From contig JAFDXR010000003.1 in assembly GCA_018267825.1 (NCBI GenBank), positions 204,952 through 268,951 on the forward strand: a stretch of 64,000 bases of DNA, in the 5' to 3' direction. This stretch comes from Bacteroidota bacterium. GTDB lineage: Bacteria > Bacteroidota > Bacteroidia > B-17B0 > Aurantibacillaceae. Position 1 is the first letter of the stretch, and each line of letters opens with the position of its first letter. The position numbers and the translations under genes are program-made. Below are positions 6,817-19,320 of this stretch, piece by piece. The notes beneath the pieces are model-generated. The model saw nothing but the letters and a program-made list of their open reading frames with translations, was not told where the DNA came from and made no database searches.

Positions 6817-7965
6817 TTATTCCTGTGTAATAACTTCTTTGGTTTCGTTGGCACGACTCACACTCAGTATAACGCCAATAGAAAGGCAGGTAAACCAGAT
6901 GGATGTACCACCCATACTTACAAGCGGCAAAGGCTGACCTGTTACCGGGAACAGGTTCACCGCTACTGCCATATTAATGAGAGCCTGAAATACGAGGCTA
7001 AAGCTTAGCCCTACAGCCATGAGTCCTCCAAAAGGCTTATCCGAATCGCGCAGGATACGAATGCCCCTGAACAAAAGGATCATATATAAAAACAACATGA
7101 TGAAACCGGTAAACAATCCGTACTCCTCGATGATGATGGCATAAATAAAATCGGATGATGCCTGTGGCAGAAATGCACGCTGCGTGCTGTTTCCGGGTCC
7201 CTTGCCAATAACACCACCCGTAGCAATCGCAATTTTGGCCTGCTCGCTCTGATAATTGCTTTTGGTATCCCCGCTTCTGAAATTTTCTATCCGCGCTTTC
7301 CATGTCGGACCGCGGCCGCCGGGAATTGTTTCGGGCCAGTTCCATACCCATACAAAAAACAGGATAGCGACTACTGCACATATACCCAGTAATTTGGCAA
7401 TAAGCCCAAACCTGACACCACCCAGGAACATCAGGAACAGGCAGTTTACAAATAGTAAAGCAGCCGTTGAAAAGTTGGCCGGCAGAATCAATGCACAAAT
7501 AATACCAATGGGAACCAAAAGGTATTTGGTGAGTGATTTAAAATCGTTGAGTTCACCCTGTCTGACTGTTAGCGTGCGGGCTACAAAAATCAATAAAATG
7601 ATCTTGGCAACATCGGACGATTGAAATGTGAGGCCGATTCCGGGAACTTCGATCCAGCGCACAGCCCCCCCTGCACTCTCCCCTTTTAAGAGTGTAAAGA
7701 TGAGGAGCGGAACTACCAGGAAAATTCCCAACTGAGCAATCTTTGAAAATACCGTGTATTTCATTTTGTGCACAAAATACATGATAGCCAGACCGCCGAG
7801 AATGGTTACGGCATGCTTAATGAGGTACGCTTCGGTATTTCCCTGCTTGTATTTGTGAGCGAGGGTAACTACCGAACTGTAAACCACGAGTACCGACAAT
7901 AAAGACAACAGCAATACAATGGTCCATATAACCTTATCTCCCTTCAGATATGTGAATAGTTTCAT
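6817..7965 (-). CDS. ftsW: Lipid II glycosyltransferase FtsW (SEDS family)
   Basis: Polytopic SEDS-family peptidoglycan polymerase of the divisome, working with FtsI. The protein has about ten hydrophobic segments and the family signatures GKGPGNSTQ, FIYAIIIEEYG and PLVSMGGTS near the C-terminal half. At 382 residues it is close to E. coli FtsW (414) without the N-terminal extension. It follows the orphan MurD-like gene by 18 bp and precedes murG. Because the operon already has an ftsI, FtsW is preferred over RodA. Confidence 0.95.
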   Translation of the reverse strand: MKLFTYLKGDKVIWTIVLLLSLLSVLVVYSSVVTLAHKYKQGNTEAYLIKHAVTILGGLAIMYFVHKMKYTVFSKIAQLGIFLVVPLLIFTLLKGESAGGAVRWIEVPGIGLTFQSSDVAKIILLIFVARTLTVRQGELNDFKSLTKYLLVPIGIICALILPANFSTAALLFVNCLFLMFLGGVRFGLIAKLLGICAVVAILFFVWVWNWPETIPGGRGPTWKARIENFRSGDTKSNYQSEQAKIAIATGGVIGKGPGNSTQRAFLPQASSDFIYAIIIEEYGLFTGFIMLFLYMILLFRGIRILRDSDKPFGGLMAVGLSFSLVFQALINMAVAVNLFPVTGQPLPLVSMGGTSIWFTCLSIGVILSVSRANETKEVITQE

Positions 7966-7983: not shown

Positions 7984-8460
7984 TTATTGAATGTTGCTAA
8001 GCCCTGCAATCAGTTGCTTAAACAGGTTACCCCGGTTTTTATAATTATCGAATGCATCGTAGCTCGGACATGCCGGCGAAAAAAGCACCACCTGGCCGGG
8101 CTGACCCAATGTTGTTGCAATCTGAACAGCTTCCTGTAATGACAATGCAGTCACGAAGAAACAATCCTGTTTTCCGAATAAGCGGAAAATACGTTCAGGT
8201 GTTCGTCCGGTATAAATCAATGATTTTATCTTATCCAGGCTGATGTTCAGAAACATGGTATAGTCTGTTTTTTCATCCTGACCACCTATGATCAACACAA
8301 GTTCTGCATCGATTTCATCGATTGATTTTACAGTACGCTTTATATCAATAGATGCTGAATCATTTACATAGGTCACGCCGTTTTTTTCGGCAACAAACTC
8401 CATGTGATGTTCATTATCCCGTGTTGAAGATAAAGTCCTGTTTGCTAAAAGTGTTTTCAT
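7984..8460 (-). CDS. Orphan MurD-like C-terminal domain protein
   Basis: A 158-residue protein that aligns along its length with residues 308-447 of the MurD encoded immediately upstream in the operon. Shared landmarks are EFVAEKNGVTYVNDS (with EFVASINGIEFINDS), IIGGQDEKTDY (with IVGGQDKGNDY) and SPACPSYDAFDNYKNRG (with SPACASFDLFQNYEDRG). The Rossmann and ATPase domains are absent, so it cannot be a ligase alone. In the NDSKATN segment it reads NDSASID, losing the Lys and Thr, and the HR pair before EFVA is HH. The frame is intact with its own ATG. It lies 1 bp after murD and 18 bp before ftsW. It looks like a duplication that was kept; a substrate-binding, regulatory or scaffold role is speculation. 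Confidence 0.85.
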   Translation of the reverse strand: MKTLLANRTLSSTRDNEHHMEFVAEKNGVTYVNDSASIDIKRTVKSIDEIDAELVLIIGGQDEKTDYTMFLNISLDKIKSLIYTGRTPERIFRLFGKQDCFFVTALSLQEAVQIATTLGQPGQVVLFSPACPSYDAFDNYKNRGNLFKQLIAGLSNIQ

Positions 8461-8461
8461 T

Positions 8462-9805
8462 TTACAAACCTCTTACTGCACCTTTAAATTGCATTCCTCT
8501 GTCTTCGTAGTTTTGAAACAGGTCAAAACTGGCGCAGGCAGGCGATAACAGAACAACATCACCTTTTTTTCCAAGCCTGTAAGATGCGTCTACAGCTTCC
8601 TTGGCAGATTGCGTTTCCACAATTGTGTCGATCACACCACTGAAGGCTTTGATGATTTTGGAGTTGTCAACACCAAGACATACAATGGCTTTTACTTTCT
8701 CTTTCACGAGATCAATCAGTTCATTGTAGTCGTTGCCTTTATCCTGGCCACCAACGATCCAAACTACAGGTTTTTGCATGCTTTCGAGTGCATACCATGC
8801 CGAGTTTACATTGGTTGCTTTGGAATCGTTGATAAATTCGATGCCATTGATAGAGGCGACAAATTCCAGGCGGTGTTCAACATTTACGAAGTCCTGAAGA
8901 CTTTCGCGGATGATATCTTTCCGGATATCAACAATTCGGGCTGCCATGGAGGCCGCCATTGAGTTGTAAACGTTGTGTTTACCTTGCAGAGCTAGCTGTT
9001 CTAGGGTCATAATTAAGGGATTTTGGTTATAATTAAGGGTTATTTGGGTTTCGTTTTCTAAATAAGCGCTATCGCCTTCGAGTGTCTGTTTGATGCTGAA
9101 AGGGATCCGCTTTGCTTTTACATCTGCCTTCTCTATGTATTCCATAATCACAGGATCATCGGCACAATAAATAAAGAAGTCAGACGGTGTCTGGTTTTGT
9201 GTAATGCGAAACTTTGATTTCGCATAGTTTTCAAATTTGTATTCGTAGCGATCAAGATGATCGGGTGTAATATTTAACAACACTGCCACATCCGCTTTAA
9301 ACTCATACATATCGTCGAGCTGAAAGCTGCTCAGTTCCAGTACATAGTAATCAAACTGCGAAGTAGCTACCTGCCAGGCGAAACTCTTGCCGACATTACC
9401 TCCAAGTCCAACACGATACCCGGCTTTCTGCAGGATGTGGTAGGTCAGCATGGTCGTTGTTGTTTTACCATTACTTCCGGTTATGCAGATTTTCTTTGCC
9501 TGAGTATAGCGTCCTGCAAATTCAATCTCTGAGATAACCGGAATATTCTTCTCGTGCGCTTTCTTAATCAACACTACAGTCGACGGTATTCCGGGGCTTT
9601 TGATGATCTCATCTGCATTCAGAATCAGGTCTTCTGTATGCGTGCCATCTTCGAAAGCAATGTTGTGATCCTGCAATACCGATTTGTATTTATCCTTGAT
9701 GATTCCCTTGTCGGATACGAACACGTCGAATCCCTTAGCCTGCGCCAGGATAGCACTGCCAACACCACTTTCTCCACTGCCGAGTATGACGATTCGTTTG
9801 TTCAC
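8462..9805 (-). CDS. murD: UDP-MurNAc-L-Ala--D-Glu ligase MurD
   Basis: Cytoplasmic ligase adding D-glutamate to UDP-MurNAc-L-Ala. It has the three standard domains: a UDP-binding Rossmann fold with GSGESGVGSA (residues 9-18), an ATPase with GSNGKTTTT (110-118), and a C-terminal ligase domain (about 308-447) with NDSKATN (326-332) and SPACASFD (421-428). The length, 447 residues, matches E. coli MurD (438). It lies 2 bp after the mraY stop, and its C-terminal domain is duplicated as the next gene. Confidence 0.97.
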   Translation of the reverse strand: MNKRIVILGSGESGVGSAILAQAKGFDVFVSDKGIIKDKYKSVLQDHNIAFEDGTHTEDLILNADEIIKSPGIPSTVVLIKKAHEKNIPVISEIEFAGRYTQAKKICITGSNGKTTTTMLTYHILQKAGYRVGLGGNVGKSFAWQVATSQFDYYVLELSSFQLDDMYEFKADVAVLLNITPDHLDRYEYKFENYAKSKFRITQNQTPSDFFIYCADDPVIMEYIEKADVKAKRIPFSIKQTLEGDSAYLENETQITLNYNQNPLIMTLEQLALQGKHNVYNSMAASMAARIVDIRKDIIRESLQDFVNVEHRLEFVASINGIEFINDSKATNVNSAWYALESMQKPVVWIVGGQDKGNDYNELIDLVKEKVKAIVCLGVDNSKIIKAFSGVIDTIVETQSAKEAVDASYRLGKKGDVVLLSPACASFDLFQNYEDRGMQFKGAVRGL

Positions 9806-18270: not shown

Positions 18271-18555
18271 TCATTGCGAGTGTTCCTTTACGAAGCAATC
18301 TCAACCATGAATTATGGAGGCATTAAAACCGAGATTCCTTCGCTATGTTCGGAATGACGTACTATCCGTCATTGCGAGTGTTCCTTTACGAAGCAATCTC
18401 ACTAACGGATTATGCGGAACTGCAGAATTGAGATTCCTTCGCTGGGCTCGGAATGACGGGCAATACGGCATCGCGAGTGTTCAGTTACGCCGCGATCTCA
18501 ATTCGTGATATAGAATCACTGGCGCAGAAACTCCACCGCTCTAAAAGCAATGACA
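18271..18555. repeat. Palindromic repeat array A (99-bp period)
   Basis: Two full ~92-bp units (about 18271-18359 and 18367-18458) are followed by a diverged terminal unit beginning at 18466. Each unit runs from CATTGCGAGTGTTCC through CGAAGCAATCTC, a variable ~30-bp middle, GAGATTCCTTCG, to CGGAATGACG. The ends CGTCATT/AATGACG and the inner arms CGAAGCAATCTC/GAGATTCCTTCG are complementary, so each unit can fold as a long imperfect hairpin. A constant 7-bp spacer separates units (TACTATC, then GGCAATA before the terminal unit). The region 18192-18270 holds nothing else I can identify. Confidence 0.88.
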
Positions 18556-18563
18556 GATCTCAT

Positions 18564-18866
18564 TTAATCTTCATATCCAATACTATAAGATAAATCCTCC
18601 CATTTGGGGTTCATTGTATTGATCAGGGCTTCTTTCTTTTTTCTGCTTCCAGCCTTAATCTGCTTCTCACGTGCGATAGCGTCTTCTATATGCGTGAAAA
18701 TTTCATAATACACAAGTTTTGTTACATTGTATCTATTTGAAAAACTGTACTTGTATTTACCCGTTTTATGCTCATGCATTCTTCTAAGCAGGTTCGATGT
18801 GACCCCGGTATACAAAGTTGTGTTATTCTGATTGGCCAGAATATATATAGCTCCTCCTTTTTTCAT
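18564..18866 (-). CDS. Single-domain GIY-YIG nuclease family protein
   Basis: A 100-residue protein consisting of one GIY-YIG domain. Visible motifs are AIY (residues 6-8), YTG (19-21), the Arg-containing helix SNLLRRMHEHK (24-34), and the helix AIAREKQIKAGSR with the likely catalytic Glu67, ending in the family tail MNPKWEDLS. The first Gly of GIY is Ala here. Small proteins of this kind are widespread and mostly uncharacterised; UvrC- and Slx1-type domains cut DNA with one metal ion. The gene lies alone between two arrays of the same palindromic repeat, with its stop 9 bp from array A and its start 65 bp from array B. A link between the nuclease and the repeat is inference. Confidence 0.88.
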   Translation of the reverse strand: MKKGGAIYILANQNNTTLYTGVTSNLLRRMHEHKTGKYKYSFSNRYNVTKLVYYEIFTHIEDAIAREKQIKAGSRKKKEALINTMNPKWEDLSYSIGYED

Positions 18867-18930: not shown

Positions 18931-19320
18931 CGGAGGGGAATGACGGGCAATTCGTCATTGCAAGTCTTCCTTTACGAAGCAATCTCATTGACGGATTATG
19001 GGAACAGCAGAACTGAGATTCCTTCGCTATGCTCGGAATGACGTACTATCCGTTATTGCGAGTGTTCCTTTACGAAGCAATCTCAATCACAGATTACGGG
19101 GAACAGTAGAACTGAGATTCCTTTGCCAGGCTCGGAATGACGTGCTATCCGTTATTGCGAGTGTTCCTTTACGAAGCAATCTCAATCACAGATTATGGGG
19201 AACAGTAGAACTGAGATTCCTTTGCCAGGCTCGGAATGACGGGCAATACGGCATCGCGAGGTCCGGTTATGACGCGAACTCAACACATGATATAGAGATG
19301 CTTGCAAAGAGGTTTCGTCG
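18931..19320. repeat. Palindromic repeat array B (99-bp period)
   Basis: A truncated right end (about 18931-18945) is followed by three full units at 18953-19043, 19051-19142 and 19150-19241, then a diverged terminal unit from 19249. Spacers are 7 bp throughout (GGCAATT, TACTATC, TGCTATC, GGCAATA). The order and orientation match array A, including the same GGCAATA spacer before the terminal unit, whose middle (TGATATAGA) is shared by both arrays. In units 5 and 6 the arm changes CGTTATT and CCTTTG keep pairing through G-U wobbles. The period is a multiple of three, which explains long spurious reading frames across it. Confidence 0.88.

Follow-up and report, generated by a model that had tools for sequence, protein, structure and literature searches.

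A free-standing MurD C-terminal domain gene between murD and ftsW in the dcw cluster of a Bacteroidota bacterium

The dcw cluster of a Bacteroidota bacterium, contained in a 64,000-nucleotide stretch of DNA (the window), carries an additional gene between murD and ftsW that encodes a MurD C-terminal domain on its own. With a probability of about 0.5, this gene is a pseudo-domain that arose once and, without itself catalysing a reaction, serves the cytoplasmic peptidoglycan machinery as an adaptor or modulator. It apparently belongs to a new gene family confined to the window's class, and searches of open-access texts, which leave subscription papers outside their scope, did not find a gene of this kind described. 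Few bacterial gene clusters have been studied as thoroughly as dcw, yet here it holds an ancient, selected extra gene. The features of the locus are listed in Table 1.

Table 1. Positions in the window of the gene, its neighbours and its conserved segments
Feature	Position	Strand	Remarks
Free-standing MurD C-terminal domain gene	7984..8460	(-)	158 aa + stop; ordered domain approximately residues 19-152
murD, complete three-domain ligase, parent paralogue	8462..9805	(-)	Upstream neighbour
ftsW	6817..7965	(-)	Downstream neighbour in all inspected loci with complete region
HxxE motif (H18, E21)	8398..8409	(-)	Invariant in window clade; MurD R302 replaced by H19
NDSASID, counterpart of MurD NDSKATN	8344..8364	(-)	K319 and T321 lost; N and S kept
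GGQDEKTDY, counterpart of MurD GGQDKGNDY	8260..8286	(-)	K348 lost
FSPACPSYDAFDNYKNRGNLFK	8017..8082	(-)	Segment with the highest conservation in the family; clade signature F127/D138/K141/N142, charge reversal relative to MurD

The reading frame is intact, its ATG start lying 1 bp past the murD stop codon and its end 18 bp ahead of the ftsW start, in agreement with the coordinates of the initial annotation. The 158-aa product scores 29.6 bits against Pfam PF02875 (Mur_ligase_C; gathering cut-off 28.4), and this is its only Pfam domain, in place of the three-domain architecture of MurD; here the domain forms a protein by itself. The murD model TIGR01087 is matched over positions 296-439 only, at 125 bits against a cut-off of 212, and residues 310-447 of the adjacent MurD are aligned with 36% identity (E=1e-31). 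An AlphaFold2 model built with ten homologues has a pLDDT of 77.5 and a pTM of 0.76, with low confidence for residues 1-18. When this predicted model was searched with Foldseek, the best 33 PDB matches were all MurD (TM up to 0.76); weak fold matches to plastid RNA polymerase chains had an rmsd of 6-8 Å. Pfam, PDB sequence search, predicted fold and BLAST agree in identifying the product as a MurD C-terminal domain and no other part of MurD, as had been proposed. It resembles the MurD ligase in sequence, in predicted fold and in the retained S415 and aromatic F422 position, and differs from it in the missing N-terminal and ATP-binding domains and in the loss of four ligand residues. The middle-domain coding region of murD contains a 20-bp tandem repeat (2.2 copies, window 9004-9050). 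Elsewhere in the window, a GIY-YIG-like ORF (18564-18866) is flanked by two related tandem arrays, one with 3.3 copies of a 99-bp unit (18937-19260; 89% matches) and the other with 2.3 copies (18271-18501).

A second match to the MurD C-terminal domain was found in about 80 of 395 genomes of the window's class, representing about 20 of 78 families; these figures come from a hand count of genomes with at least two matches, some of which may be a MurD split over contigs, and verification was confined to the genomes that were fetched. The other classes of the phylum, sampled with 82 genomes, showed no tandem copy. Genome G432, from another class, has two MurD C-domain matches on two contigs, as would result from a split MurD. 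Nine further loci were taken from public Bacteroidota MAG contigs. A search for the gene between murD and ftsW in related genomes had been proposed as a check, and there it recurs: it follows murD in all 70 inspected loci (which include some contigs seen twice and yield 65 different proteins), ftsW comes next wherever the fetched stretch reaches, and the frames are intact and of similar length everywhere. In the 50 full dcw loci that carry the gene, the order of the remaining cluster is as usual. The gap between murD and ftsW measures 2-138 bp in the 31 loci in which the tandem gene was not detected, save two with longer gaps. In loci L004 (JABDAO010000078.1) and L041 (genome G369), apparently one contig present in both collections, murD lies in two frames, probably through an assembly frameshift.

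R302, D317 and K319 are taken here to be ligand contacts of the MurD C-terminal domain; residues are numbered on E. coli MurD, where the gene number equals the literature number plus one. The roles of K348, T321, S415 and F422 have been described, K348 being the contact of the D-Glu alpha-carboxylate (PMC3527612). Among R302, D317, K319, T321, K348 and S415, only D317 and S415 are kept in the window protein. Both R302 and K348 are lost, the latter being replaced by E63, a change on which the initial annotation was silent, and the Lys and Thr of NDSKATN (K319 and T321 in literature numbering) are gone, as the initial annotation had observed. It had also correctly noted that the SPAC...F segment is kept: S415 is retained as S133 and the aromatic of F422 as Y140. 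Across the 65 products, R302 occurs in 29, D317 in 53, K319 in 41, T321 in 49, K348 in 15 and S415 in 60, all six together being found only in the ten sequences of family f12. The 30-member clade of the window contains R302 in no member and K348 in two; 11 other MurD-invariant residues (H301, E304, N316, S318, R425 and six more) are present in all 30. This clade preserves the fold core and the FxNYxxRGxxF segment. Its four signature residues have, in order, L, E/K/Q, E and D as their MurD counterparts, and the charge reversal takes the form of E434K in 28/30 and D435N in 24/30 members. To judge from these alignments, the gene product would no longer be able to act as an enzyme in most lineages, its catalytic contacts having been lost.

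With K348 gone in 28/30 members of its clade, the window protein is unlikely to sense D-Glu, one of the roles suggested at the outset. A broader version, in which the product would bind D-Glu, UDP-MurNAc-peptide or a nucleotide and thereby regulate MurD or FtsW, draws on the frequent retention of S415 and on the D317/K319/T321 region, which is kept in many clades. Family f12 also favours it: as all six ligand residues are kept there, a ligand role is possible in that family, and the gene products of L120 and L121 are 97% identical where their MurDs are 74% identical. The scarcity of K348 and R302 among the 65 products, the complete absence of R302 from the window clade and the forms in family f34 that lack the NDSK and SPAC segments all speak against sensing, which is on balance an unlikely function for the family.

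That ligand contacts are lost while the fold and a re-charged terminal helix are retained points to protein binding rather than chemistry, as in the proposed adaptor or modulator. The gene would have arisen once, early in the window's class, when the 3′ third of murD was duplicated in tandem. Its product would adopt the fold of MurD's mobile C-terminal domain, serve as a protein-binding module and belong to the cytoplasmic peptidoglycan complex centred on MurD, MurG/MraY and FtsW, with which it shares an operon, where it would hold or tune the ligases instead of ligating. The likeliest contact surface would be the constrained, charge-reversed FDNYKNRG helix. Enzyme ancestry, lost catalytic residues and purifying selection, the marks of a non-catalytic operon paralogue that works like a pseudoenzyme, are found together here, the selection having been measured in relatives. 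Its loss from many relatives suggests that the gene would be beneficial yet dispensable. The product may hold MurD or MurG or modulate FtsW, as had been suggested; a more tentative extension is that across much of the class it couples the septal polymerase FtsW to precursor synthesis by MurD and its fellow ligases.

The adaptor model has precedents in a partner by which MurD is bound and inhibited (PMC12208494) and in MurG, a scaffold to which MurD, MurE and MurF bind (PMC6420597). The job proposed for the window gene product would resemble that of MurG, which is to gather the soluble Mur enzymes at the membrane, but the two proteins are unrelated. PAP11/MurE-like of the plant plastid RNA polymerase is likewise a Mur-ligase relative that has become a subunit of a non-peptidoglycan complex, but it is a full-length MurE relative and belongs to another complex (PMC9456514). 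If the gene tunes or scaffolds Mur ligases, it would offer a genetic handle on whether the cytoplasmic peptidoglycan enzymes form a complex.

Evolutionary-rate covariation, computed for the gene against 14 partitions of the dcw cluster, recovered known pairs, namely FtsZ-FtsA (0.55) and MurC-MurG. It gave no coupling of the gene with MurD (0.00 for the C-terminal part, -0.17 for the N-terminal and middle part) or FtsW (-0.06), and the best value, with MurE (0.29, p=0.007 of 14 tests), was not significant after correction. A column comparison of MurD, FtsW, MurG and MurE between genomes with and without the gene yielded no convincing marker. In 35 genomes set against gene presence, MurI was found in 35, MreB in 34 and Mpl in none, a distribution too uniform to be informative. 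In the course of these comparisons no fusion of the gene to a partner came to notice. A further reading is a decoy or competitor role, in which the product would replace MurD's own C-domain or the site of a MurD-targeting protein and so restrain or protect MurD. The product has the fold of the mobile MurD C-domain, and inhibition of MurD by a bound protein has a known case: MigC of Acinetobacter is such a partner outside the Mur ligases, although it is a COG0523 GTPase and not a MurD paralogue (PMC12208494). The missing rate coupling with MurD counts against a decoy, as does the loss of the closed-state contacts R302 and K348, through which docking in the MurD cleft would be weaker, and this role is rather improbable.

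In a tree of the 65 gene products and 65 MurD C-domains, the distinction between the two requires 2 changes, compared with 43 in shuffles. Constraining the gene products to one clade costs 3.8 log-likelihood units and is not rejected (AU p=0.41). The broad groups of the gene tree agree with a species tree from nine dcw proteins, on which presence and absence alternate within family f1 and genus g30; natural presence/absence pairs exist inside single genera. The simplest account, which the tree fits, would be one ancient partial duplication of murD followed by vertical inheritance and many losses. Family f12 is the uncertain branch, since the unconstrained tree groups its copies with MurD sequences (84/73 support). 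This placement, with the full set of ligand residues in f12, could mean that the 3′ end of murD was duplicated several times independently, a rival on history and not on function. The small cost of a single clade and the same position and similar length everywhere oppose it, and f12 could also have come from gene conversion with murD; repeated origins are unlikely. In f12 (L120-L126), the free-standing copy evolves more slowly than MurD itself, and FtsW is altered at otherwise near-invariant positions (window E280 to R/K, G256 to W/Y).

Absence from close relatives had been named as a sign of a recent, decaying duplication. Several genomes of the same family do lack the gene, but the tree explains this as repeated loss. 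No clear pseudogene was recognised by sequence in the intergenic gaps of gene-negative loci. The two negatives with longer gaps nevertheless turned out to contain ORFs. In family f34 (L172, L182, L183, L184), ORFs of 99-122 aa lie between murD and ftsW; three of them align with the central part of the family profile (93% probability in hhalign for the alignment of these ORFs). By this comparison they are strongly diverged copies of the gene, L172 matching weakly. A 155-aa ORF at the same site in L168 (G339, family f20) resembles the family in its N-terminal helix and its end; the similarity is weak, and it is perhaps an extreme copy. Some apparent negatives may therefore be extremely diverged copies.

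In relatives with measurable dS, pairwise comparisons give the gene a dN/dS of 0.01-0.16, against the value near 1 that had been named as a sign of decay, and of the same order as in its neighbours; relative to murD it is lower in f12 and two to three times as high in several other pairs. On the window's own branch dN/dS is unmeasurable because dS is saturated and no congener was found. With the same site occupied in some 20 families, these values sustain the earlier view that a partial paralogue has been retained because it has a real role. A recent or decaying duplication without function, for which the gene-negative close relatives and the degenerate f34 forms (pair dN/dS 0.32), probably with that of f20, might be cited, is very unlikely given the low dN/dS in most lineages, the intact frames of 70 loci and a single ancient origin that is not rejected.
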